NCBI GenBank assembly: GCA_030833925.1
Contig: JAURGE010000012.1
Coordinates: 1-55,525 of the forward strand
DNA from: Alphaproteobacteria bacterium
GTDB taxonomy: Bacteria > Pseudomonadota > Alphaproteobacteria > Bin95
Length of the DNA: 55,525 nt
Direction: 5' to 3'
Shown: piece after piece, positions 22,932 through 55,479 of the stretch
How the letters are laid out: each line of letters begins with the position of its first letter
Position numbering within the stretch: the stretch's first letter is position 1
Translations under genes and position numbers: made by a program
Notes under the pieces: generated by a model
The model's input: only the letters and a program-made list of their open reading frames with translations
What the model was told of the DNA's origin: nothing
Database searches by the model: none

Positions 22932-24017
<1,086 letters not shown>

Positions 24018-34658: not shown

Positions 34659-34730
<72 letters not shown>

Positions 34731-34734
<4 letters not shown>

Positions 34735-36948: not shown

Positions 36949-38007
36949 ATGCGATTAGGGCTTTCGATTGGGTATTCCGGGGCTAATCTTGAGATACCCA
37001 TTGATCGTATTAAGCGAGCTGAGGCTTTGGGTTACGATGCTGTTTGGACTGCAGAAGCCTATGGATCTGATGCTGTAACGCCATTGGCCTATATTGCTGC
37101 TCATACAAGTCGTATTCGTTTAGGCACAGCAATTATGCAGCTTGCAGCCCGAACTCCCGCTAACGCTGCAATGTCTGCTGCAACAGTAGATGCGATGGCG
37201 GGAGGCGGCCGCTTTATCGCTGGCCTAGGAGTTTCAGGACCGCAGATTGTCGAAGGTTGGTATGGCCAACCATGGGGTCGTCCCTATTACCGCCTGAAGG
37301 ATTACGTAGAAATAATGCGAAAGGTTTTTCGGCGTGAGTCCCCAGTTTCTCATGATGGTCATGAGATAAGTCTTCCTTATCATGGCCCTGGAGAAGCGGG
37401 TGTTGGTAAACCCTTAAAGTCTATTTTGCATATGAACCCAGATATCCCGATCATGATAGGCGCGGGTAACGAAGCAACGGTTCGTTTAACTGCGGAAATT
37501 TGTGACGGCTGGTTACCGCTTGGACTGACCCCTGATGCTGCAAAAGAGTATCTTCCCTGGGTAGAGGAGGGCTTCGAGCGCGCCCGAGCAAAGGGTATCG
37601 ATAAAGGATTTCATAATTTTGAGGTCGTTGCATCAGCCCACGTGGATGTAGACAGTGATGTTAAGGCAGCACTTGATCGATTAAAGCCAGAAGTTGCTTT
37701 GTACGTTGGAGGTATGGGGCACCGTAATAAAAACTTCCACAATGATATGATGGTGCGCAGAGGGTTTGGTGATGCGGCCCGCAGGATACAAGAGCTCTTT
37801 TTAGCTGGGCATAAGGATGAGGCAGCATCTGCCGTTCCAGACGAGTGGGTAGATGAAAAGGCGCTTGTTGGGCCACCAGCCCGGATTAAACAGCGTTATA
37901 GGCGATGGGAGGATACCGAGATGATTGACTCTCTGTACGTCAGATCAAATCAGGATGAAGCCGTCGAGGTTATGGCAGAAGCCGCTAGGCTGAACGCACC
38001 TCGTTGA
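36949..38007 (+). CDS. Luciferase-like (LLM) flavin/F420-dependent oxidoreductase
   Basis: A 352-residue TIM-barrel protein of the bacterial luciferase-like family (PF00296). Features are [11 protein letters not shown], the [19 protein letters not shown] motif, [38 protein letters not shown] and the [21 protein letters not shown] phosphate-binding segment (cofactor site by family). The pattern is closest to the F420-dependent subgroup, but FMN cannot be excluded. Its 3' end overlaps the convergent cysE by 23 nt. A 211-nt A+T-rich gap precedes it, containing a weak hairpin (AACCCA-TTT-TGGGTT at 36804-36818) that might end the upstream aconitase-family transcript. The substrate is unknown. Confidence 0.83.
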
Positions 38008-42665: not shown

Positions 42666-43562
42666 ATGTTAGAATTTGAGGAACCATCTGACCTTGTCCA
42701 CCATGACGTTGAGGTAAATGGTCATCGGCTGCATGTTGCCAGCATTGGCGAAGGAGCAACTTTGTTATTTCTTCATGGATGGCCAGAATTTTGGGCGACA
42801 TGGCTGCCTTTGATGCAAAGATTAAAGCGTCATTTCAAAATAGTTGCGCCGGATTTCTATGGTTTTGGGCGTAGTGATAAATCAATCGGTGCACGGGACG
42901 ATGTCGATGCTGAATTTCACGCACGCGATCTGGCCGCGCTAATCCCGAAATTTACCTCAGACGCCCCGATTATTGTGGCGCATGACGTTGGAGCTTTTGT
43001 TGGCCAGTGTTTAGCGCAGCGAAATCCATCTTCTGTGCGGGGATTGTTTTTTTTTGATTGTCCAACTGCGGCGGTTGGGCGGGGTTGGATTGAGGAAGGG
43101 CAGATTAACGAGATTTGGTATCAATCATTTCATCAAACAAGTCTCGCAGAACAGCTTGTTAGCCATAATAAGCAAACCTGTCGTCTCTATTTCCAGTACT
43201 TCCTTCAGCACTGGTCACACAAAAAGGAAGCTTTTAATGAGGCACTAGACCTTTGGGTTGAAAATTTCAGTGCGGAAGGTGCTTTAGCCGGGGGGTTTAA
43301 TTGGTATCGCAGCTATAATGCGCGGCGCCTCCGAGCATTGGCGGGTGAATTGGCAGAGATTAATCCCTTGATTCCACATAAAACACGGGTGTGGTGGGGG
43401 CGGCATGATCCAATTTGCCGTTCAGAGTGGTCTAACACACTGAACCGTGTATTTGCCGATTTTACCGTCGCTTTTGCAGAAGAAGCTGGTCATTTTCCGC
43501 ACGTGGAGATGCCAGATGCAGCTGCTGCAGAAATCATGCAATTTGCTAAAACTTTAGGATGA
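42666..43562 (+). CDS. Alpha/beta hydrolase, epoxide hydrolase/haloalkane dehalogenase-like
   Basis: A 298-residue alpha/beta hydrolase. The oxyanion motif is HGWPEFW near residue 37, followed by GFGRSDKS, and the nucleophile elbow AHDVGA places Asp107 where esterases have Ser. The catalytic His lies in AGHFPHVE near the C-terminus. An Asp nucleophile is the mark of epoxide hydrolases and haloalkane/haloacetate dehalogenases, but the residue after it is Val, not Trp or Arg as in most characterised members. The ATG at 42666 has a GAGG upstream. It overlaps the transporter gene by 4 nt, suggesting one operon. Confidence 0.82.
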   Translation: MLEFEEPSDLVHHDVEVNGHRLHVASIGEGATLLFLHGWPEFWATWLPLMQRLKRHFKIVAPDFYGFGRSDKSIGARDDVDAEFHARDLAALIPKFTSDAPIIVAHDVGAFVGQCLAQRNPSSVRGLFFFDCPTAAVGRGWIEEGQINEIWYQSFHQTSLAEQLVSHNKQTCRLYFQYFLQHWSHKKEAFNEALDLWVENFSAEGALAGGFNWYRSYNARRLRALAGELAEINPLIPHKTRVWWGRHDPICRSEWSNTLNRVFADFTVAFAEEAGHFPHVEMPDAAAAEIMQFAKTLG

Positions 43563-44431
43563 CGTCGCTGGCCTTATCACGAAACATGGTTGCAGTGAGT
43601 TGGATGGCGGGGGCCGCTATTTCGTTCACGGTCCTAGTCGTTGCAGTTCGAGAACTCTCAGATAGTTTGCCAACCGCCGAAATATTATTTTTCCGCGCCG
43701 CATTTTCTGTGGCGTTGTTGTTGCCGTGGTTGATGAGAGCGGGAGTTGGTGCATTAAGAACTAAGCGCTTCTTTGGTCATACTGGACGTTGTTTAGCCAC
43801 GTTTACTGCGATGATGCTTTGGTTCCATGCCGTCGGACTTTCGACGTTGGCAGACGCTGTTGCAATTCAATCTACCTATCCACTTTTCACCATTCTGCTG
43901 GCTGCTCTTCTACTTGGTGATAAACCAAAGGCAATCCGCTGGATTGCAACAGGTATCGGGTTCATAGGCATGCTAATCATCGTCAGACCGGGAGTTATTC
44001 CGATTAACACGGCAACGTTGATGTTGCTTGGAGCGAGCATTTTCTATGCACTCTCTAATACTTTTGTGAAGTGGATGTCTGATACGGAGCCAGCAAATCG
44101 ACTGGTATTTATTCAAAATGCGAGCTTGGCATTACTTTCCGCAGGCCCTGCTGTTTACTTCTGGGTTGATCCTCCTCTTCATGAGATCCCATGGATAGTT
44201 GCATTGGCACTTTCAGGACTCTCGGCGCATATGTGCTTAACTCGTGCTCTAGGTGCTGGTGACGCCAGCCTTGTAATGCCGTTTGATTATCTCCGTCTCC
44301 CATTTGCTGCGGTCCTTGGATATCTTCTCTATTTAGAGATGCCGGACGTTCCAACTATGGGCGGCAGCGCAATTATCGTTTTTGCAATGAGTGTGATTGC
44401 CGCTACTGAGCGCAAGCGGAAGCAAGAATAA
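43559..44431 (+). CDS. EamA/DMT-family transporter
   Basis: A 290-residue membrane protein with about ten predicted segments in two EamA repeats. The first runs from SWMAGAAISFTVLV to FIGMLIIVRPGV, the second from LMLLGASIFYALSNTFVKWM to VPTMGGSAIIVFAMSVIA. The RAAFSVALLLPW and PFDYLRLPFAAVLGYLLYLE segments are typical of RhaT/YdcZ-related drug/metabolite exporters and S-adenosylmethionine-type carriers. The substrate is unknown. Overlap with the hydrolase gene (ATGA) suggests it moves a related metabolite, but that is inference. Confidence 0.87.
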   Translation: MTSLALSRNMVAVSWMAGAAISFTVLVVAVRELSDSLPTAEILFFRAAFSVALLLPWLMRAGVGALRTKRFFGHTGRCLATFTAMMLWFHAVGLSTLADAVAIQSTYPLFTILLAALLLGDKPKAIRWIATGIGFIGMLIIVRPGVIPINTATLMLLGASIFYALSNTFVKWMSDTEPANRLVFIQNASLALLSAGPAVYFWVDPPLHEIPWIVALALSGLSAHMCLTRALGAGDASLVMPFDYLRLPFAAVLGYLLYLEMPDVPTMGGSAIIVFAMSVIAATERKRKQE

Positions 44432-45449: not shown

Positions 45450-46658
45450 ATGAGCGCCCAGCGTTTGCCTTTTGAAGGCTTTAAGGTTTTGGACATGACT
45501 CAGGGCGTAGCAGGACCGCACTCGACGATGTTGCTCGCACAACAAGGAGCAGAGGTCACTAAGGTCGAGCCGATCGATGGTGATTGGGGCCGTACGCTTG
45601 GGAAAATGTATGGAGATACCTGCGCTCACGCGATTATCTTCAACCGAGGAAAACGCTCAGTTTCTCTCAATATGAAAGAGAAGAAGGCGCAGGAACTTGT
45701 TCAGAAAGCTGCAGCAGAAGCTGATGTGATAGTAGAGAGTTTCAGGCCGGGAGTTATGGGACGGTTTGGGCTTTCCTATGATGACGTTAAGAAGGTCAAT
45801 CCAAATGTTATCTATCTGTCAGTCACAGGTTTTGGTCAGCAAGGGCCTTATAATAAGTTGCCTGTTACCGACTCTGTTATTCAAGCATTCTCTGGTTGGA
45901 TGTCGATCAACCGTGATGAAGAAGGGACCCCGCAGCGTATTGGAATGATCGCGGTCGATGTCATGACAGGCCTTTATGCTTTTCAGGCAATCTCTTCAGC
46001 TCTAATGCGAAAAGTTCGTTTTGGTGAAGGTGCTTACATCGATTGTTCCCTAATGCAGTCGGCTGCCGCATTTCAGGCGGCGAAGGTAATGGAACACTAT
46101 CTGGAAGGCGGGCAGCCTCAAGTTCTATATGTGCCTGTTGGTACGATGAAGACTTCAAATGGATATATCAATGTAACAGCTATGCGCGAGCATCATTACG
46201 TTGGTCTTTGTAAGGTTCTTGGGAAAGAAGAATGGGCAACAGACCCACGCTTTGACAGCCGTGAGAAACGGATAGACCAAGAAAAAGTGCTGATGCCAAT
46301 GGTTCGCGCCGAATTTTTGAAGAAAACAACTGAAGAATGGGCGGAGGCACTTACTGAAGCTGGCGTCATGAATGCGCCCGTTTCCACTTATGACAATTTC
46401 ATGGCGGATGAACATGTTAAAGCGGTTAATTCGATTTCCTGGATCGCCCATCAAGGAATGCAGGGTGACCTCCCCATGTGCAACATTCCGGGTTTCCGCA
46501 AGATCGAAGGTAATCACGATTTGGATGAAGCGCCTTCAATTGGGCAACATACGGATGAAATCCTCACCAAATGGGGGCTAAGTCATAAGGATATTTCAGA
46601 GCTTGTGGCTGGCGGTGTTGCCGGTCGTGGTATGCCAAACACGGCTGCGGCCGAATAA
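45450..46658 (+). CDS. Class III (CaiB/BaiF) CoA-transferase
   Basis: A 402-residue family III CoA-transferase that moves CoA between carboxylic acids through an aspartyl-CoA anhydride. It has the LDMTQGVAGPHSTMLLAQQGAEVTKVE N-terminus (split by its Gly-Pro), the GKRSVSLNMK motif, VIVESFRPGVMGRFGLSY, and the probable catalytic Asp in VTDSVIQAFSG near residue 150. The long C-terminal domain ends KWGLSHKDISEL. FRC-like (formyl), carnitine and bile-acid CoA-transferases share this fold, so the substrate is unclear. GGAGGGA precedes the ATG. It lies 12 nt before the FAH-family gene, so they share an operon. Confidence 0.92.
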   Translation: MSAQRLPFEGFKVLDMTQGVAGPHSTMLLAQQGAEVTKVEPIDGDWGRTLGKMYGDTCAHAIIFNRGKRSVSLNMKEKKAQELVQKAAAEADVIVESFRPGVMGRFGLSYDDVKKVNPNVIYLSVTGFGQQGPYNKLPVTDSVIQAFSGWMSINRDEEGTPQRIGMIAVDVMTGLYAFQAISSALMRKVRFGEGAYIDCSLMQSAAAFQAAKVMEHYLEGGQPQVLYVPVGTMKTSNGYINVTAMREHHYVGLCKVLGKEEWATDPRFDSREKRIDQEKVLMPMVRAEFLKKTTEEWAEALTEAGVMNAPVSTYDNFMADEHVKAVNSISWIAHQGMQGDLPMCNIPGFRKIEGNHDLDEAPSIGQHTDEILTKWGLSHKDISELVAGGVAGRGMPNTAAAE

Positions 46659-46670
46659 GGATCTAATTAG

Positions 46671-47519
46671 ATGAAATTACTTCGTTATGTAGCGGGCGAC
46701 GAAATTCGTCCTGGCATTCTTGATGCTTCTGGTGCCATTCGTGATCTGGGGGGCATAGTTCCCGACATTGACTCCGAGGCCATCTCGCCAGAGGGATTAG
46801 CATTGATTGGTTCAATCGATACTGAGAGCCTGCCAAAGGTTAAGGGCGAGCCCGCGCTTGCGGCGCCAGTTGCCGATCCTTCTAAAGTCGTTTGTATTGG
46901 ATTAAATTATTCTGATCATGCGGCTGAAGTTGGAATGCAACCTCCTTCGGAACCGATCATCTTCCTCAAATCATCTACGGCCTACACTGGCCCAAGTGGG
47001 CCGGTAATAAAGCCACCTCATTCGACGAAACTCGATTGGGAGGTGGAACTGGTTATCATTATTGGAACAGAAGCGTCCTTTGTTTCAGAAGACGAGGCTT
47101 TGCAACATGTCGCTGGGTATGCGGTTGGTAACGATATATCTGAACGTGAATTCCAAACCGAAAGGCCAGGGGGTCAATGGACCAAGGGTAAGTCAGGAGA
47201 TAATTTTGCTCCGGTCGGACCTTGGCTGGTTACTAAGGACGAGGTCCCAAACCCTGAGAACCTCTCAATATGGCTCGAGGTTAACGGTAAGCGAGTGCAG
47301 GATGGCAGCACCTCAACATTAATTTTTGGTGTAAAGAAAATTGTCAGTTTTGTTTCTGAATACATGACCTTGCTACCAGGCGATGTGATAATGACAGGAA
47401 CCCCACCAGGGGTTGGTGCGGGCATGAAACCACCACAATTTTTGCAAGTTGGTGATGAAATGCGTCTTGGAATTGAAGGTCTTGGAGAGCAAAGACAGAC
47501 TGTTGTTGCTAGAAACTGA
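46671..47519 (+). CDS. Fumarylacetoacetate hydrolase-family protein
   Basis: A 282-residue protein of the FAH fold. Features include VCIGLNYSDHAAEVG, FLKSSTAYTGP, the metal-binding LDWEVELVIIIG motif, NDISEREFQTERPGGQW, SGDNFAPVGPWLVTKDE, and GDVIMTGTPPGVGAGM. Members hydrolyse C-C bonds in 3-oxo acids, or isomerise or decarboxylate such compounds (5-oxopent-3-ene-1,2,5-tricarboxylate decarboxylase and acylpyruvases). It is co-directional and 12 nt from the CoA-transferase gene, consistent with breakdown of an aromatic or sugar-acid derived intermediate. Confidence 0.92.
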   Translation: MKLLRYVAGDEIRPGILDASGAIRDLGGIVPDIDSEAISPEGLALIGSIDTESLPKVKGEPALAAPVADPSKVVCIGLNYSDHAAEVGMQPPSEPIIFLKSSTAYTGPSGPVIKPPHSTKLDWEVELVIIIGTEASFVSEDEALQHVAGYAVGNDISEREFQTERPGGQWTKGKSGDNFAPVGPWLVTKDEVPNPENLSIWLEVNGKRVQDGSTSTLIFGVKKIVSFVSEYMTLLPGDVIMTGTPPGVGAGMKPPQFLQVGDEMRLGIEGLGEQRQTVVARN

Positions 47520-47739: not shown

Positions 47740-48519
47740 ATGGACGATTTATTTGACTTGTCTGGTCAGACAGCTCTTATCACTGGCTCTACTAAGGGTA
47801 TTGGCAAGGCAATCGCTGCACGTATGGCTCAATATGGAGCTAAGGTTGTAGTTTCCAGTCGAAAAGCAGACGTATGCGATGCTGTTGCAGATGAAATCAA
47901 TAAGAATTATGCGGGCAGAGGAGGCAAGGCTATAGCAATACCTTGCCATGTTGGTCACAAAGATCAGCTGCAGTCACTTGTTAGCCAAACTGAGCAAGAG
48001 CTTGGACCAATTGATATCCTCGTTCCCAATGCAGCCGTTAACCCCTACTACGGTCCTTCAAAAGATATGCCCGACTCTGCTTGGGATAAAGTAATGGAGA
48101 CCAATGTCCGGTCAACTTTTTGGCTCTGCAACATGGTCATTCCCGGTATGGCAGAACGAGGTAAGGGAGTAGTGACTATTATCGCTTCGATTGCAGGTTT
48201 GCAGGGTTCCGTGGAACTTTTTGCTTATGCAGTCTCCAAGGTTGCGGAACATCAAATGGCACGTAATTTCGCGCTCGAATATGGTCCGCAAGGAGTTCGT
48301 GTGAATGCCATTGCGCCAGGAGTTATAAAAACAGATTTTGCCAAAGCACTCTGGACCGACCCTGTCCGGCTTGATCAGATGAATAATAAACTACCACTTC
48401 GCCGTTTTGGTCATCCTGACGAAATTGCTGGTGCAGCCCTCTTTCTATCATCAAAGGCAGGGGCATACATGACTGGTCAAGTGCTAAGCATCGATGGTGG
48501 TGCCGCAATTACTCCGTGA
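47740..48519 (+). CDS. Short-chain dehydrogenase/reductase
   Basis: A 259-residue classical SDR with GSTKGIGKAIA at 16-26, VPNAAVNP near 95 (NAA replacing the usual NNAG), Ser150 and the YAVSK motif with Tyr163/Lys167. It ends with MTGQVLSIDGGAAITP. It resembles dehydrogenases/reductases of the DHRS4 or 3-oxoacyl type. It follows the FAH gene after 220 nt. Its stop is immediately adjacent to the stop of the convergent deaminase gene. Its role in the surrounding catabolic cluster is inferred, not shown. Confidence 0.88.
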   Translation: MDDLFDLSGQTALITGSTKGIGKAIAARMAQYGAKVVVSSRKADVCDAVADEINKNYAGRGGKAIAIPCHVGHKDQLQSLVSQTEQELGPIDILVPNAAVNPYYGPSKDMPDSAWDKVMETNVRSTFWLCNMVIPGMAERGKGVVTIIASIAGLQGSVELFAYAVSKVAEHQMARNFALEYGPQGVRVNAIAPGVIKTDFAKALWTDPVRLDQMNNKLPLRRFGHPDEIAGAALFLSSKAGAYMTGQVLSIDGGAAITP

Positions 48520-49032
48520 CTATTTGCGGGAATTTGCAAAGGACTTGAAGATTAAAACAGCTTCGCGCTGGCCCATTCGTTCTGTGAGCATGTCGCGTTC
48601 TTCAGGAGGCTTTGCTACCTGCTCTCTGAGTTGAACCAAATTGTAGCGCCTTTTTAGCGAGGGCTGGTCTGCAGCCATTTCACTCATGAAGGATGTTGAG
48701 TCCTTCCAGTCTGCTGCATAAACAAGCTTGGATATATTAGTAAGGATCATCGTCGCGACGCACATAGAACACGGCTCTGCTGTTGTGTAGATTGCAGCCC
48801 CGGATAAATCTGTGGTCTCAAGACGCTTGCAAGCATCTTTTATTGCCTCAACTTCGCCGTGAGACGTCGGATCGAACAACCGTGGCGCCTGGTTAATTCC
48901 TTCCCCGATAATTTTACCGTCAAGTACTACAACCGCTGCGTAAGGTAGTGTTCCAGACTGATTTTGAGCTGTGGCGGCTATATCTAAGGCGCGTTGCATG
49001 AATTTATCTAGCAGCACAGATTTCCCCATCAT
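48520..49032 (-). CDS. Cytidine deaminase-fold nucleoside/base deaminase
   Basis: A 170-residue zinc deaminase of the CDA superfamily. The catalytic His-Glu is in TSHGEVEAI (H58, E60) and the other zinc ligands in AEPCSMC (C88, C91), close to the guanine deaminase/TadA/ComE-like group. The C-terminal region is longer than in TadA and the basic tRNA-binding C-terminus of TadA is not obvious, so a free base or another amidine is a likelier substrate. It is translationally coupled to the flavin monooxygenase-like gene (4-nt overlap). Confidence 0.82.
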   Translation of the reverse strand: MMGKSVLLDKFMQRALDIAATAQNQSGTLPYAAVVVLDGKIIGEGINQAPRLFDPTSHGEVEAIKDACKRLETTDLSGAAIYTTAEPCSMCVATMILTNISKLVYAADWKDSTSFMSEMAADQPSLKRRYNLVQLREQVAKPPEERDMLTERMGQREAVLIFKSFANSRK

Positions 49033-50207
49033 AAAAATGCGGTCGATCCAGGATCTAAATCTAAGAGGATGCGTCCAAGATTTACAAAATTTTCTGCTCT
49101 AGCTTGTGTTTGCTGTGAAGCAGATAGAGCGTCCCGAAGTCTGCGTTCGAATGGTCCGGATTTAAAGATTGCAGTAGACCCTGCAGCCCTATACGCCTCA
49201 TGAACAATATCCACTCCTTCATGAATACAGTGTACGGAGGCAAGTTTAAGTCGGGCCCTTTCGTCAAGTGTAATGGCGCCGCGTGCTGATACGGTTTCTT
49301 GTGCAGACAGAGCCTCGGTCATCAAATATGCGCGAGCAGACCTGAGGCGGGCTTCTAGTCTTGATAATAACTGCTGGAAGACAGGATTTTCCCGCAACGA
49401 GACAGCAACACCGCGAGGAGTCTTAGTCATGGCTAGGCTTCGGAGTTCCGTCAGCATTCGTCGCGCAATGCCAAGCTGTAGCGCTGAAAATCCTACGCCA
49501 TACACGACAGTACCCGGAAAGAGATATATCGAAGCGGTCTCTTGCAATTCTTCGAGGTTTTCTCTGTCAATTGTATCCTCTTCTGAAACAAACATATCCT
49601 TCAGTTCGAAGGTATCGCTGCCAGTCCCCGAAAGGCCCATAACCTGCCAATTGTCCTCGATTTTTGCTTGTTCACGCCTTATTAGCACCGTGCGGTCTAG
49701 CTTTGTGCCGTTTGCCCGAAAAATAGGATTGCCTGCTTCATCAACTACAAAAGAATGGCCACCAAGAATTGTTGCATGCCTGCTTCCACTATTGAACATC
49801 CAGCGCCCAGAAACTCGATAACCTCCATTAACTTTAACAGCTTGTCCTTGAATACCGGCCCCCCAGGCTAAAACGGCGTTGGCTGGTCCGAACCACTTCT
49901 GTCGTGCAATGGGCGTCAGGAAAGCTGCAGCTAAAGCACACCCGCCTCCCTGGCCAGAAACCCAAGCAGCGCTTGCGTCACCCTGCGCTAATGTTTCAAT
50001 TGTTTCTGCAAATGTGACGAGATCTGCTTCGTCACCACCTACAGACTTAGGCAAAAGAACTCGAAAAATCCTAGCTTTGTGCATGGCTTCGAGTACATCT
50101 GGCGGCATTTCACGGGCGGCCTCTATCCTTGAGGCTGCCGCATCAAGAATGGGAACGAGGGTCTCAGCTCGTTCTGGTGCAGTTATGTAATGAGTGGCGT
50201 CAGGCAT
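49029..50207 (-). CDS. Acyl-CoA dehydrogenase-fold flavin monooxygenase-like protein
   Basis: A 392-residue protein of the acyl-CoA dehydrogenase superfamily, in the branch of two-component flavin monooxygenases (HsaA, DszC, 4-hydroxyphenylacetate monooxygenase). It has LLPKSVGGDEAD, the GDASAAWVSGQGGG core, GRWMFNSGSRHATILGGH and the MGLSGTGSDTFELKDMFV motif. The C-terminal helical domain has an Acyl-CoA_dh_2 pattern, and the Glu of true acyl-CoA dehydrogenases is not visible. It probably needs a flavin reductase, not encoded nearby; the G+C-rich PNPOx-like protein at 5556 is too distant to link. Its gene overlaps the deaminase and follows the cupin gene by 7 nt. Confidence 0.8.
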   Translation of the reverse strand: MPDATHYITAPERAETLVPILDAAASRIEAAREMPPDVLEAMHKARIFRVLLPKSVGGDEADLVTFAETIETLAQGDASAAWVSGQGGGCALAAAFLTPIARQKWFGPANAVLAWGAGIQGQAVKVNGGYRVSGRWMFNSGSRHATILGGHSFVVDEAGNPIFRANGTKLDRTVLIRREQAKIEDNWQVMGLSGTGSDTFELKDMFVSEEDTIDRENLEELQETASIYLFPGTVVYGVGFSALQLGIARRMLTELRSLAMTKTPRGVAVSLRENPVFQQLLSRLEARLRSARAYLMTEALSAQETVSARGAITLDERARLKLASVHCIHEGVDIVHEAYRAAGSTAIFKSGPFERRLRDALSASQQTQARAENFVNLGRILLDLDPGSTAFL

Positions 50208-50214
50208 TTGAAGA

Positions 50215-50484
50215 TTAGACCATCCGGCGGCCTGCTATGTAAGTGACTCCTTCCATCCCCACCCGTTCCTTATGCGGAATATTAGCGGACAAAGCGAATG
50301 TATCACCTGGCCCACAGGTGCTAATTTTGCCCTGATGTTCAATGATTAACTGGCCAGTAAGTACGTATAGCCTTGCGTCAAAAGGATGTGAATGCTCCTC
50401 GTTGATATGCCCTGGCTCCATTGCCGCTTCTCGCATTTCAAAGCCATCACGAGCGAGGCTAGACTCAAACTCTTCACGATTCAT
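50215..50484 (-). CDS. Small cupin-domain protein
   Basis: A single-domain cupin of 89 residues. The first cupin motif includes EEHSHPFDARLYVLTG with the His-x-His pair, and the second is CGPGDTFALSANIPHKERVG with a His. It likely binds a divalent metal. Such small cupins can be regulatory, chaperone-like or catalytic. The ATG at 50484 has GGGAG about 9 nt upstream; the in-frame alternative at 50502 is a poorer candidate. It lies between the hydrolase and the monooxygenase-like gene in the operon. Confidence 0.82.
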   Translation of the reverse strand: MNREEFESSLARDGFEMREAAMEPGHINEEHSHPFDARLYVLTGQLIIEHQGKISTCGPGDTFALSANIPHKERVGMEGVTYIAGRRMV

Positions 50485-50535
50485 TTGATATTCTCCCAGC
50501 AAGACTGATTTAAAATGGCATATGCTCCTCTAACT

Positions 50536-52557
50536 TCAAAGCCCTTGAACATCATGCAGTGGTCGTCCCCAGTTCTCCGCTTCTGCCATGCAACGGCTAA
50601 CATCTTCCTCTAACATAAACCCCGTCATCACGAGGGTCTTGGCTGCCTTTTCGATAGCTTTAATGTAGCCGTCATTATCTTTATAGCGTGCCAAAATAGA
50701 TATTCGGCTATCACCAGTTGCTGCCTGAATTTCTGGTGTCTCGGGCAAGGGAATATAGCTCCCAGAAAATTCATGCATGGCTCCATGGGCTGTTCCACGC
50801 TTCCTAACATTCCAGCCCGTATAAGTGCCGAGTGGCGCTTGAACCATTGGGCATCGCACCCCGGCTATTTCGTTACCGTCTGAGTCCACAGCAGGAACAA
50901 GGATTTTGTAGGCGGCTTCATTGATTACTTCAGGGGGTTCTTGGGCTAGAATTCCGAGCGTTTCTTCTGGGCCAAAATCCATTAACGGAAGCTGATTTGG
51001 TCCACTGGGAATTAACTGACCGGGAATAGTTGGGAATTGTTTTCTCCATTCATCATAATCCAGGAGTGTACCCGTTACCCTAGTTGGTATGGCAGAAGGT
51101 GGTGGAGCAGTTCCTTCCCGAACCCAGGTATCCATTGCGTCTAACATAGCCCGAAAAAGCATCGAGGTCTGGGCGATGTTTAGGTAATTTAATCCAATGC
51201 TTGTTTGAGGCCTTTCTAAGTTTGGATCTGAGGTGTGCTGGGTTGACGCCCATGCGTAAATCCGAACATTTTCAGGGATAGCGAGGTCATTACCAAGAGT
51301 ATCTGTATGCACAAGGCTTCCTCGTCGTTGCCAATATTCTGTAGCTGTCTGTGTATGAATTATGAGAGGATCCGTTAGGGGTCTTTTTAGAATTGAGTCA
51401 GTTTTACCTGTGTTATGGTCTGTTGTTTCTGCATAAGCGAAGGGGAACCGGTCGGCAGGGCAGTAATGGTCCTCATGCTGCTGGCCGCCCGCAACTACTG
51501 CGTTAGCGAAGCGTTGATTAAGCCATTTACCTCCCGCGCCGGATACATGTGGTAGGGCTCCATCAAACACTTTTCTGCCAGAAGCATCTTCGTTAAAGCC
51601 GCGCCAAATAAAGTCTCGAATTAGTCGTCCTGTTTGTGAGCGACCGTAAATGTAGGCCCTCTCAATTCCTTGTTCGAGCGGATTAGATGTATTTACCTCG
51701 TCTTTTTGGCCGTATTTTAAGAAGCTTACAAAGTCGCGAATGGCAACATGACCAAGACCCATTACAAGGGGGTCCTTTGCCTCATAAACAATTTCGTATA
51801 TCCAACCAGGCTCGAAACCTCCTGGCAGATAGATGTGTTCCAGGCTTGGAGCAAACCCGTATTCAGAACCAGTGGCATGCAGACCGCCCCCTTGATCGAT
51901 CCTTGCAAAACGCCATTGAGAATGAGGAATAATTTGGCGGGCATCGGTCTGATATTGGCGACGTGTTAGAGTGGCGTGCTCTTGTTCCAGGGAGACAGCA
52001 GGATGAGAACGGGTAGAAGATCGGCCAGACAGCGGAAAACAATATACTCCAGGTTCGCTTGCGATAAACTCTGTCCGTACTTTGCCTGTGATGGGCTTAT
52101 CACCATCCTTCGCTATTGGGAGATCAAGTAACATTCGCCCTTGACCTGGTAGAAGGTCACCCTGCCATGCCGCCGCGACTATTGTGTAGCCTCGCCGGAA
52201 TAAAAACCCATTACCAGCATGGGCAACTGTCAGTGGGGTATTTGTAGCTGGAGCATCACAATAGTATTGGATTGCTCTCATATTTCCCCGATTTCCAGTG
52301 TCAAAGAATAAACCCCCGTTTCCTCTAGTCATGTCGGTAGGCTTTAAAATGCAGAAGTCTGTCGTAAACTTAATCAGCCCATTGGCATCTCGCTCCGCCT
52401 TATCTATGTCAACAACATCTGCTTGCGCCGCAGCTAGTGGGTCAACGCGAAAATGAGCTCTTCCTGTGAGCCTCTCATAGCTGCCAACGCTATCAAACTT
52501 CATTCCTCCAGCAAAAGCTTGGCGGTCTTGGACTTCGATACGAATAAGGTTTGTCAT
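50536..52557 (-). CDS. Alpha/beta hydrolase domain protein (PF20091-type)
   Basis: A large hydrolase of about 673 residues matching the alpha/beta hydrolase domain family PF20091 (recalled, not searched). The catalytic serine lies in YGRSQTGRLIRDF, and the LFFDTGNRGN, RGYTIVAAAWQGDLLP and QTATEYWQRRGSL segments are typical of this family. There is no signal peptide, so it is cytosolic. The ATG at 52557 has AGGAG 8 nt upstream; the frame extends upstream to 52614 without support. It is the first gene of the operon hydrolase-cupin-monooxygenase-deaminase and diverges from the acyl-CoA dehydrogenase at 52663. Confidence 0.72.
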   Translation of the reverse strand: MTNLIRIEVQDRQAFAGGMKFDSVGSYERLTGRAHFRVDPLAAAQADVVDIDKAERDANGLIKFTTDFCILKPTDMTRGNGGLFFDTGNRGNMRAIQYYCDAPATNTPLTVAHAGNGFLFRRGYTIVAAAWQGDLLPGQGRMLLDLPIAKDGDKPITGKVRTEFIASEPGVYCFPLSGRSSTRSHPAVSLEQEHATLTRRQYQTDARQIIPHSQWRFARIDQGGGLHATGSEYGFAPSLEHIYLPGGFEPGWIYEIVYEAKDPLVMGLGHVAIRDFVSFLKYGQKDEVNTSNPLEQGIERAYIYGRSQTGRLIRDFIWRGFNEDASGRKVFDGALPHVSGAGGKWLNQRFANAVVAGGQQHEDHYCPADRFPFAYAETTDHNTGKTDSILKRPLTDPLIIHTQTATEYWQRRGSLVHTDTLGNDLAIPENVRIYAWASTQHTSDPNLERPQTSIGLNYLNIAQTSMLFRAMLDAMDTWVREGTAPPPSAIPTRVTGTLLDYDEWRKQFPTIPGQLIPSGPNQLPLMDFGPEETLGILAQEPPEVINEAAYKILVPAVDSDGNEIAGVRCPMVQAPLGTYTGWNVRKRGTAHGAMHEFSGSYIPLPETPEIQAATGDSRISILARYKDNDGYIKAIEKAAKTLVMTGFMLEEDVSRCMAEAENWGRPLHDVQGL

Positions 52558-52662
52558 GGATGCGGCTCCTGGTGGTCCAATTAGTATGGTTGCGCGCATC
52601 AGAGGGCTCGGCAACAGGTACCTTTCGTTTTATTCTATTAGAATTATGACGGAGCATATTTG

Positions 52663-53829
52663 ATGAGAGTTTTTGAGCGTTTGGATGCAGGCCATGACTG
52701 GGCTGAAGATGAGGCAGCTGTGATAGAGACAGTTGCCCGTTTGGCGAGGGAAGAAATAGCACCTCGTGCATCTGAGTTCGACAAAACGAAGGCTTTTCCC
52801 TGGGTTAATGTCCAGGCAATAAATGCTCTGGGTTTAAACGGTTTATTTATTCCTGAAGTCTATGGCGGCGCTGGTATGCGCTACGCTGTTTATATTGAGT
52901 GCGCTAGATTGGTGGCAGCTGCTTGTGCTTCTACCGGTATAATTTGGTCTACCGTTTTTCATGCAATTAAGCCGATTATCGATTTTGGGACAGCCGAGCA
53001 AAAGCAGCGTTTTTTACCTAAAATCGCTGCAGGAGGTCTTGCTGCTTTATGCATAACGGAGCCGGATGCAGGATCAGATGCAACAGGCATGCGTACCCGG
53101 TTTATCCCCGAAGGGGATAGAATTCGCATTGAAGGGGGTAAACGCTTTATCTCTAATGGAGATGTTGCGGATGTTTTTCTTGTATTTGGAAAGTGGTCTG
53201 AAATTGACGACCCGAAGGCGTCTATTTCTGCGCTAGTTATCGAGAAGGGCGCAGAAGGCTTAGAAACGGTTAGACTTGAAGAAAAGCTTGGGCACAGAGC
53301 TGCCTCTACGGCCGAACTCGCTTTTAATGGGGTGTCCGTCTCTCGTGACAATTTACTCAAAGAGCCTGGACAGGGCCTTTCAATTCTCTTCGCTGCTCTC
53401 AACAAGTCTCGGCCAAGTGTAGCCGCACATGCCCTGGGCATAGCTCGTGCGGCGTTTGAGACAGGGGTTAATTATATTAACGATCGTCGTCAGTCTGGTC
53501 GGAGGATTGTCGACTTCCAGGGTATTCAATTCATGCTAGCTGATCTCGCGACCGATCTTGCAATGTGTGAACGCTGGCTGTTTCACGTATCTGAAATGCT
53601 AGATAATGGTGAGACCGATGTTGGCATCGAGGCAAGCATGCTAAAAATGCGCGCCTCTGATCTAGCCATGCGCGCAGCAGACATGTGCGTCCAACTGCAT
53701 GGCGGGTATGGTTACGTCGAAGACTACGCTGCCGAACGATATTTTCGAGACGCTAAGATCACCCAAATTTGGGAAGGAACTAATCAAGTTCACCAACAAC
53801 TCATTGGCCGAAGCTTTGCTAGGAGGTAG
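52663..53829 (+). CDS. Acyl-CoA dehydrogenase
   Basis: A 388-residue acyl-CoA dehydrogenase. It has GGAGMRYAVYIECARLVAAACAS, the FAD motif ITEPDAGSDATGMRT, and the C-terminal catalytic Glu in QIWEGTNQVHQ preceded by QLHGGYGYVEDYA. These are the usual features of short- to medium-chain or branched-chain acyl-CoA dehydrogenases, which also require ETF. ATG at 52663 with GGAG 8 nt upstream is preferred to TTG 52660. It diverges from the hydrolase gene and precedes the dioxygenase gene by 2 nt. Confidence 0.92.
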   Translation: MRVFERLDAGHDWAEDEAAVIETVARLAREEIAPRASEFDKTKAFPWVNVQAINALGLNGLFIPEVYGGAGMRYAVYIECARLVAAACASTGIIWSTVFHAIKPIIDFGTAEQKQRFLPKIAAGGLAALCITEPDAGSDATGMRTRFIPEGDRIRIEGGKRFISNGDVADVFLVFGKWSEIDDPKASISALVIEKGAEGLETVRLEEKLGHRAASTAELAFNGVSVSRDNLLKEPGQGLSILFAALNKSRPSVAAHALGIARAAFETGVNYINDRRQSGRRIVDFQGIQFMLADLATDLAMCERWLFHVSEMLDNGETDVGIEASMLKMRASDLAMRAADMCVQLHGGYGYVEDYAAERYFRDAKITQIWEGTNQVHQQLIGRSFARR

Positions 53830-53831
53830 CA

Positions 53832-54662
53832 GTGGACATTCTCCCGCTCAGTAACGTTATGGGTGCTGAGGTCTTGGGCCTCGACCTCTCTCATGATGTT
53901 TCAGAAGACCTTGTTGCGGACTTGTCCAAAGGACTTTCAAAATACCTAGTCCTTTGTGTACGGGGTCAAAAACTAGCACCCGAAACCTTCGTGCGTGTGG
54001 CTCGGCGGTTTGGACGGCCCAAGGCGAGCTTGTTGAGGCAAGACCGATTATCGGAAACGCCAGAAGTTTCGATTGTGTCAAATAGGCAGGCCTCTATGGG
54101 CGGAAAGCCAATGGTTCATGCAAAGGCTTGGCACACTGACGACAGTTATTTTGCCAAACCTGCTATGTTTACTATGCTTCAGGCGATCACTCTTCCCAAG
54201 CGCGGTGGCAACACAGATTTTATTAATACTTGTGCGGTCCTTGAGGCCATGCCTTCAAATCTCCGTCAAAGGATAGAAGGTTTGAGGGCCATACACACTT
54301 ACCAAAGTCGGAGAAATCTCTCTGCTGTGGCAAGGCGTTCTGACCAAGAGATTGCTGAGACGCCCGCAGTTGATCATCCATTAGTAAGAACATTACCAGG
54401 TAGTGGTCGACAGGCCCTGTATATTAACCCAAATCGTATTGAACGGATCCTCGGTTGGAATGAACCAGAGAGCGATGCTTTGCTTGATGAGCTTTATGAC
54501 TTCGCGTTTAGATCCGAATTTCAATATAGTCATGAATGGCGCGATGGTGACCTCGTAATTTGGGACAACCGCTGCACTATGCATAAAGCGAATGCCGATT
54601 ATGACATCGCGCAGCTTCGGGTCATGCATCGGGTGATGTTAGAGGGGGAAGTTCCAGTATGA
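53832..54662 (+). CDS. TauD/TfdA-type 2-oxoglutarate dioxygenase
   Basis: A 276-residue Fe(II)/2-oxoglutarate dioxygenase of near-canonical TauD length. It has the N-terminal GAEVLGLDLS signature, HTD at residues 101-103 (AWHTDDSY), and the distal His251 in NRCTMHKANADYD. The 2-oxoglutarate Arg is in RVMHRVML near 263-267. The nearest families are TauD/TfdA and 2,4-D-type dioxygenases, which hydroxylate sulfonates, carboxylates or aryloxyacetates. It starts at GTG 53832, 2 nt after the acyl-CoA dehydrogenase stop, so the two are coupled. Confidence 0.9.
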   Translation: MDILPLSNVMGAEVLGLDLSHDVSEDLVADLSKGLSKYLVLCVRGQKLAPETFVRVARRFGRPKASLLRQDRLSETPEVSIVSNRQASMGGKPMVHAKAWHTDDSYFAKPAMFTMLQAITLPKRGGNTDFINTCAVLEAMPSNLRQRIEGLRAIHTYQSRRNLSAVARRSDQEIAETPAVDHPLVRTLPGSGRQALYINPNRIERILGWNEPESDALLDELYDFAFRSEFQYSHEWRDGDLVIWDNRCTMHKANADYDIAQLRVMHRVMLEGEVPV

Positions 54663-54819: not shown

Positions 54820-55479
54820 TTAATTTTTTGAATTTAGAATTGTGTATGCATCAATCAGATCCTCTATGTCTTCGAAATATCTGATCTGATTACCCTCCAG
54901 AAGCAGGCCACAATCGCAGTATTGTTTGATTGTGCCCGCTGAGTGCGAAATCATGATGATCTGGCTCTTGTTCAGCTTTTCCTGAAACACTCTTCTGCTT
55001 TTTTTTCGAAAGTCTTCGTCCCCAACCGCGATGATTTCATCAATCAGATAGACGTCAAAATCAATTGCCATGCTGAGGCCGAAGGCTAGGCGAGCCTTCA
55101 TGCCACTGGAATAGGTCTTGATAGGTAGTCTGAGTGAAGAACCCAGCTCTGCAAATTCTGTCACATAGGCAATAACCTTGTCAGTATTCTGCCCATAGAT
55201 GCGTGATACAAAGCGAATATTTTCAATGCCGGTCATGCTCCCGTTGAAGCCGCCAGAGAAACCGAGTGGCCAAGAGACGCGTTTTGTTCGGTAGACATGG
55301 CCAAGGTCAGGCGGCTCAATCCCTGCCATGAGCCGCATCATAGTAGATTTACCAGAACCATTCTTGCCCATGATGCCTATGTTGCGGTCCGTGGGAAACT
55401 CAAAGGAAAAATCCGAGAGGATTGTCTTTTTAACCCCTTTGGCGCGATAGAATTTTGTGACCCTATCAAATACGAGCAT
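54820..55479 (-). CDS. ABC transporter ATP-binding protein, capsule/O-antigen export (KpsT/Wzt-like)
   Basis: A 219-residue ABC ATPase: Walker A GKNGSGKST at 38-46, signature YSSGMKARLAF, Walker B YLIDEIIAVGD and a switch His in MISHS. The FNGSMTGIENI segment and the lack of the extended C-terminal domain of Wzt point to the KpsT group, which powers export of capsular or teichoic-type polysaccharides with a KpsM permease. The start follows directly after the stop of the upstream permease fragment. It is translated from the minus strand near the right edge of the window. Confidence 0.9.
   Translation of the reverse strand: MLVFDRVTKFYRAKGVKKTILSDFSFEFPTDRNIGIMGKNGSGKSTMMRLMAGIEPPDLGHVYRTKRVSWPLGFSGGFNGSMTGIENIRFVSRIYGQNTDKVIAYVTEFAELGSSLRLPIKTYSSGMKARLAFGLSMAIDFDVYLIDEIIAVGDEDFRKKSRRVFQEKLNKSQIIMISHSAGTIKQYCDCGLLLEGNQIRYFEDIEDLIDAYTILNSKN

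Follow-up and report, generated by a model that had tools for sequence, protein, structure and literature searches.

The four genes and their predicted products

The window analysed here is a 55,525-nucleotide stretch of alphaproteobacterial DNA that makes up contig C33 of a 2.78-Mb assembly of 181 contigs. We examined four adjoining genes on its minus strand, which are predicted to encode a hydrolase, a cupin, a flavoprotein oxygenase and a deaminase:

48520..49032, minus strand: deaminase gene, 170 amino acids (aa), cytidine/guanine-deaminase fold (Pfam PF00383)
49029..50207, minus strand: putative flavoprotein oxygenase gene, 392 aa, two-component type with the acyl-CoA dehydrogenase fold; codon for Gln366 at 49110-49112
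50215..50484, minus strand: single-domain cupin gene, 89 aa (Pfam PF07883)
50536..52557, minus strand: alpha/beta hydrolase gene of family PF20091 (Pfam), 673 aa, with no leader seen by eye

The hydrolase and cupin genes were separated by 51 nt and the cupin and flavoprotein genes by 7 nt, and the flavoprotein and deaminase genes overlapped by 4 nt. These open reading frame (ORF) coordinates bear out an earlier prediction made for this stretch (hereafter the original prediction), and Pfam likewise returned the four families that it had named: PF20091 (126.6 bits against a curated cut-off of 23), Cupin_2, Acyl-CoA_dh_2 for the flavin monooxygenase-like protein, and dCMP_cyt_deam_1. Such close spacing of four co-directional genes is usual for an operon. 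Among NCBIfam models, HsaA was the best for the flavoprotein, under its cut-off; the deaminase match was also below cut-off, and neither the cupin nor the hydrolase was matched. Every domain named here is based on a Pfam or NCBIfam match or on identity to a protein carrying that annotation, and genes in GC-rich contigs were picked by a custom script, some of them wrongly.

The hydrolase ATG lies at 52557, with an in-frame TTG further upstream at 52614. We placed the start at 52557 because three other loci (L029, L030 and L031) have ORFs with the same MTN start, as has the gene annotated on plasmid pRA01 of Roseicitreum antarcticum (L094). The cupin ATG at 50484 agrees with the starts of its homologues and yields the 51-nt gap. 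When the four genes were compared with those of another genome of the genus (G004), synonymous sites were saturated (proportion of differences, pS, 0.72-0.80) while the nonsynonymous proportion (pN) was 0.08-0.14, and we therefore regard all four genes as real. A consensus scan for promoters and terminators found 5 and 8, respectively, against 8.0 and 7.9 in shuffled sequence, none above chance.

The AlphaFold model of the oxygenase (predicted local distance difference test, pLDDT, 90.9) had 7f72 as its best Foldseek match (E 7.7e-27; template modelling, TM, scores 0.88/0.93). It superimposed on Rv3094c of Mycobacterium tuberculosis (7f74) with Z 50.4 and a root-mean-square deviation of 1.9 over 369 residues, and the next-best structures were HsaA, XiaF and p-hydroxyphenylacetate hydroxylase C2 at Z 45-46 (45.7-46.0 for HsaA, 45.1 for C2). 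The report on Rv3094c describes it as an ethionamide S-oxygenase in which His351 is the proton donor that stabilises hydroperoxyflavin (PMC9904262). The flavin mononucleotide (FMN) contacts W80, F136, S138, W174, L179 and S184, as given there, correspond to W82, F138, S140, W187, L192 and S197 of the window's protein, and among 20 aligned rows there was one exception each at positions 138 and 192. We took His351 as the homologue of C2 His396, the residue marked in the same source. Rv3094c and HsaA carry His at this position, whereas the window's protein has Gln366; Gln was found in 19 of the 20 rows, the window included, and His only in a Variovorax sequence (34-35% identity). As the FMN contacts are kept but the His is replaced by Gln, the gene product is, from its sequence and model, likely a flavin oxygenase of uncertain chemistry.

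The first motif of canonical cupins carries a Glu ligand. No Glu was seen at that place in the window's cupin when five sequences were aligned and inspected by eye, and His31, His33 and His71 were invariant in all five, which gives an HxH pair and a later His as candidate metal ligands. The closest solved profiles were those of quercetinase and TM1459-type cupins. The neighbours of the one named cupin relative examined, out of six matching records, were uninformative.

The predicted structure of the hydrolase (pLDDT 85.4, predicted TM score 0.89) is that of an alpha/beta hydrolase. Its candidate triad of Ser307, Glu407 and His441 was invariant in 23 of 23 rows, with each residue placed after a predicted strand. 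The best Foldseek match was MHETase (E 9.4e-4, TM under 0.2), and the model reached a best Z of about 13 with esterases and peptidases and 12.0 with the tannase CbTan2. Against solved structures the single sequence gave no match at E 1, and the profile gave two only, at E of about 1 over a short C-terminal stretch, neither significant. Because the structural matches are low, they indicate the fold and not the substrate. The resemblance to MHETase and tannase-type esterases extends to the nucleophile motif of tannases, GxSxxGR, which the hydrolase shares. Relatives of the hydrolase in Terrarubrum (L095) and Methylobacterium (L096) have an apparent signal peptide by eye, and none in family f1 does. 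The match to a relative on a Sinorhizobium meliloti M162 plasmid (L097) is split into six segments and runs to the final base of the record, and this copy looks broken.

In the deaminase the zinc motif H58-G-E60 ... P87-C88-x-x-C91 was invariant in all 18 aligned sequences, the window included, as part of a common DxTxHGE and PCxxC pattern. Both the zinc motif and the overall profile resemble the nucleobase deaminases of the cytidine deaminase fold, with guanine deaminase GuaD (1wkq) closest. The structure 1wkq has HAE, whereas the window's protein and its relatives have HGE in 18 of 18 rows, with PCxxC kept. The model for the tRNA enzyme TadA scored 79.7 bits of the 150 required, far under its cut-off.

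The relatives of the window's deaminase also differ from GuaD and other nucleobase deaminases in adjoining importers and enzymes for nitrogen compounds. We read six plasmid regions from 175 matching records, and an ATP-binding cassette (ABC) importer lay near the deaminase relative in all six. Amidohydrolases were nearby in three (Paroceanicella, Alloyangia and Terrarubrum), creatininase in two (Terrarubrum and Ancylobacter), hydantoinase and isochorismatase in that of Ancylobacter, and flavin reductase in two (Agrobacterium and Variovorax). Two genomes of family f128 (G140 and G773) have consecutive genes for ABC permeases, the deaminase, a ureidoglycolate-lyase-like protein and an AtzD/TrzD-family ring opener. 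Other f128 loci have an amidase gene, a gene for hydantoin racemase, or a TauD gene accompanied by one for a solute-binding protein; in two the neighbours are instead an enolase-family gene and FliG. Because the relatives sit in such clusters, a small-molecule substrate is favoured over tRNA, and the proximity of importers, amidohydrolases, hydantoinase, creatininase or the AtzD-type opener fits an attack on a nitrogen heterocycle. We rejected the idea that AtzD regularly accompanies the deaminase: it was present in just two of the seven deaminase-bearing f128 genomes and absent from the stretches, some of them short contigs, of the other five. In two loci (L136 and L137) the order is short-chain dehydrogenase/reductase (SDR), photolyase-related protein (DPRP), deaminase orthologue and ABM protein, adjoining a LIV-type ABC transporter.

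Conservation and recurrence of the gene set

The full four-gene order was also found in G004. That genome is collinear with the window from a partial gene at its contig end (matching 43559-44431) to an acyl-CoA dehydrogenase gene divergent from the hydrolase gene, with eight proteins 78.7-96.5% identical and synonymous sites saturated. The divergent hydrolase-dehydrogenase pair was kept in all five genomes of the genus compared, the window's included. Three of them (G001, G002 and G003) have this pair without the other three genes alongside; in G002, cupin, flavoprotein and deaminase genes lie together at a contig end, on a separate contig from the hydrolase. Oxygenase and deaminase orthologues (56-66% identical) were on different contigs in G001, G003 and G006, with other neighbours and apart from the hydrolase.

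PF20091 was present in 13 of 14 family f1 genomes, two of these copies being fragments at contig ends. Oxygenase and deaminase orthologues occurred in the same six of the nine f1 genomes searched; in G005, G007 and G008 the oxygenase matches reached just 38-42% and no deaminase match exceeded 47%. Identity to the window's oxygenase was 90% in G004, 70% in G002, 64% in G001, 63% in G003 and 56% in G006, and to its hydrolase 81, 73, 72, 73 and 65% in the same genomes. The two series rank the genomes almost alike, as expected under vertical descent. For the deaminase, identity stood at 81% in G004 and stayed level at 64-66% in G002, G001, G003 and G006. These genomes therefore have the gene content in common, and the four-gene clustering is either recent or was lost in relatives. 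One scan of genome contigs returned six loci, only one of them (L021) a close relative. Elsewhere in the window's own genome (contig C95, L143), an oxygenase paralogue (39-40%) has genes for a LIV-type ABC transporter and an AMP-binding enzyme at a distance of about 3 kb; in G006 (L031) a homologous transporter set (63-72%) directly follows the PF20091 gene.

In all, 385 genomes of the class were searched at thresholds of E 1e-60 for the oxygenase and E 1e-30 for the deaminase. The oxygenase was found in 33 genomes and PF20091 in 37, with 16 holding both; six of the nine with the deaminase also had the oxygenase. Fisher tests gave p 7e-10 for oxygenase and PF20091, 2e-5 for oxygenase and deaminase, and 6e-4 for PF20091 and deaminase. 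Without the five f1 genomes, 28 genomes had the oxygenase, 32 PF20091 and 11 both (p 2e-6); the oxygenase and deaminase (six genomes) shared three (p 0.006), and PF20091 and the deaminase shared two, which was not significant (p 0.08). A phylum-wide deaminase search at E 1e-33 recovered one genome of 339, the window's own.

Of the 16 genomes with both, four had the listed oxygenase and PF20091 matches within 1.2 kb of each other: the window's (G000), G079, G291 and G368. In both G079 and G368 an ApbA-type gene lies downstream. PF20091 relatives occurred in 57 of the 61 genomes of family f67, and in each of the 20 best-scoring loci the oxygenase gene was followed by the VOC gene and then by the PF20091 gene, all on the same strand. 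Since this order was kept in 20 of 20 loci, an oxygenase with a small metalloprotein and a PF20091 hydrolase seems to make up a genuine module, of which the window has a version with a three-His cupin where f67 has the VOC protein, and with the deaminase added. The possibility left by the original prediction that the genes never co-occur in other genomes is removed by the full order in G004, the triad in G002, the presence of flavoprotein and deaminase orthologues in the same six f1 genomes, and the f67 arrangement.

We also compared 23 oxygenase loci, some of which had themselves supplied queries and some of which lie close to a contig end. Within 4 kb, eight had an alpha/beta hydrolase gene (PF20091, BD-FAE or Abhydrolase_6) and nine a cupin or VOC gene (on the other strand in G216). 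Luciferase-like, TenA, isochorismatase and radical-SAM genes were among the neighbours of the oxygenase too.

Proposed pathway and alternatives

The four genes form a real, conserved operon that is probably catabolic. We hold it about an even call that they encode a probably cytoplasmic catabolic pathway for a small aromatic or heteroaromatic molecule that bears an amino substituent. In such a pathway the oxygenase, with reduced FMN from an unlinked reductase, would hydroxylate (or N-oxygenate) the ring, and the deaminase would turn an amidine-type carbon into a carbonyl by displacing its exocyclic amino group. Opening or isomerisation of the oxidised ring might take place at the three-His metal site of the cupin, which would play the part of the VOC protein in f67, and the PF20091 serine hydrolase could cleave the resulting ester, lactone or enol ester. 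CoA-transferase, dehydrogenases and a FAH hydrolase encoded in the flanks could feed the carbon skeleton into central metabolism. We assign no order to the steps of the four enzymes, which would act on a single common compound.

Two known systems offer a comparison. In the logic of HsaA-HsaC-HsaD, ring hydroxylation is combined with metal-dependent ring cleavage and an alpha/beta hydrolase. The oxygenase, the VOC or cupin protein and the hydrolase resemble this set, the VOC form being kept in f67. The window differs in its PF20091 hydrolase, in a cupin replacing VOC and in the extra deaminase, and no steroid genes were noted in the annotated neighbourhood of the operon. The nicotinate pathway NicC-NicX-NicD-NicF has the same kinds of step, namely flavin hydroxylation, metal-dependent ring opening, an alpha/beta hydrolase and nitrogen loss. 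As far as is known, its protein families differ from those of the operon, and no isochorismatase-family gene was found among the nine annotated genes in and around it.

Several observations weigh against the catabolic pathway proposed. The paper PMC9904262 reports that Rv3093c, a predicted flavin adenine dinucleotide (FAD)/FMN reductase, is co-transcribed with Rv3094c, whereas a check for the co-occurring flavin reductase that the original prediction proposed to look for found no PF01613 gene on the window contig; the genome has two (on contigs C181 and C97), and other reductase families were not searched. There is no transporter among the four operon genes. The Fisher tests treat genomes as independent and ignore shared ancestry, and oxygenase and PF20091 share no contig in 12 of the 16 class genomes with both. 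The 20 f67 loci gave no cupin or deaminase match, with about 1.5 kb covered on each side. Twelve of the 23 oxygenase loci lacked the cupin, VOC and hydrolase genes searched for, and some adjoin apparently unrelated genes, such as those for a Complex1_51K-type protein, DHDPS-family protein, cyclase or nitronate monooxygenase. The deaminase gene adjoins those for a photolyase-related protein, an SDR and an ABM protein in G001 and G003, a TPR protein in G006, and GFA and glutathione S-transferase in G292. The three g2 genomes that were searched have the hydrolase without oxygenase or deaminase orthologues. Finally, hydrolase, oxygenase and deaminase are apart in three of the five f1 relatives with both orthologues, so linkage is not required. 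The stepwise breakdown of a nitrogen compound put forward in the original prediction is therefore upheld in part, by the nitrogen-compound clusters of the deaminase relatives and the recurrence of the module, and weakened by the separation of the genes in three relatives and by the PF01613 result.

This separation is what would be expected if two functions, the hydrolase with its divergent dehydrogenase and the cupin-oxygenase-deaminase triad, had been joined in a small genome and were co-transcribed without forming one pathway. The split in G002 and the g2 genomes agree with such an origin, as do the assembly sizes of 2.6-2.8 Mb for the window's genome and G004 vs 3.3-4.3 Mb for the three others of the genus. 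The pairing of oxygenase and hydrolase in all 20 f67 loci examined argues the other way, and we consider the explanation unlikely, although a serious one. We find it improbable that the operon acts on an ester or a peptide-like compound without a ring, for which the hydrolase would be the entry enzyme. This idea draws on the hydrolase relative closest to the window's among the plasmid sequences (56%), on Roseicitreum antarcticum pRA01. Its gene has an oligopeptide/dipeptide-type ABC importer on one side and, on the other, a gamma-glutamyltransferase-family gene and then a flavin reductase gene. It is countered by the aromatic-hydroxylase fold of the oxygenase that accompanies the hydrolase in f67 and the window.

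The operon might instead modify its substrate and not break it down: it would tailor, detoxify or salvage a heterocycle resembling a cofactor, and the deaminase would act in repair or salvage. The photolyase-related neighbour in G001 and G003 would suit that role, as would an oxygenase relative (50%) in G024 that adjoins a TenA/thiaminase II gene, preceded by TctC and thiamine pyrophosphate-enzyme genes. We judge it quite improbable, given the CoA-transferase, dehydrogenases and FAH hydrolase in the flanks and the importers and amidohydrolases around deaminase relatives.

More tentatively than the catabolic pathway for an amino-substituted ring, we suggest that the operon belongs to an undescribed alphaproteobacterial module of oxygenase, VOC or cupin protein (as interchangeable metal folds) and PF20091 hydrolase. 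Its Gln oxygenase, lacking the His donor, would perhaps carry out N-oxygenation or other flavin-oxygen chemistry, and the window's version would have gained an HGE-type deaminase that opens the module to an amino-heterocycle. The original prediction knew of no described pathway with this gene set, and a search of open-licence literature on PF20091/Abhydrolase_10 or on combinations of the gene functions found none. Literature under the same licences on homarine and on nicotinate/maleamate did not have the set in titles or abstract openings, and it yielded no paper on creatinine deaminase, on barbiturase with nucleoside deaminase, or on the relative's accession. For the PF20091 hydrolases no assigned substrate was found, and annotated copies are named just 'alpha/beta hydrolase domain-containing protein'. 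Their conserved association with a flavin oxygenase whose active site is altered provides a pathway context open to testing; for the f67 version, any cultured member of that family would serve. If correct, the proposal would add a route for heterocyclic nitrogen compounds and a natural case of cupin/VOC exchange within one gene set.

Flanking genes and other features of the window

The following features flank the operon:

45450..46658, plus strand: family III CoA-transferase (CaiB) gene (Pfam), in a flanking block common to G004
46671..47519, plus strand: FAH-family hydrolase gene (Pfam), in the same block
47740..48519, plus strand: SDR dehydrogenase gene (Pfam), convergent with the deaminase gene
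52558..52659, no strand: intergenic stretch separating the divergent hydrolase and dehydrogenase genes
52660..53829, plus strand: acyl-CoA dehydrogenase gene (Pfam and comparison with G004), divergent neighbour of the hydrolase gene
53832..54662, plus strand: TauD-family dioxygenase gene (Pfam), 2 nt after the dehydrogenase gene
54820-55479: ABC-type ATP-binding protein gene, beyond the TauD-family gene

The divergent acyl-CoA dehydrogenase is a likely, though not certain, member of the pathway. No promoter above chance was found by the consensus scan in 52558..52659, and no match to the TauD-family gene was found beside the dehydrogenase in G004. The SDR stop abuts the deaminase stop at 48519/48520 with zero gap, and the same is seen in G004 (L027, 8064/8065).

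A luciferase-like monooxygenase gene (PF00296) lies at 36949-38007, about 10.5 kb from the operon; luciferase-like genes adjoin oxygenase relatives in G001, G003 and G024 too. The protein encoded at 22932-24017 has N6_N4_Mtase and RAMA domains, which we take to be the make-up of a CcrM-type DNA methyltransferase. A tRNA-Lys(TTT) at 34659-34734 was the sole tRNA found by ARAGORN and the sole Rfam match at gathering score in the window.

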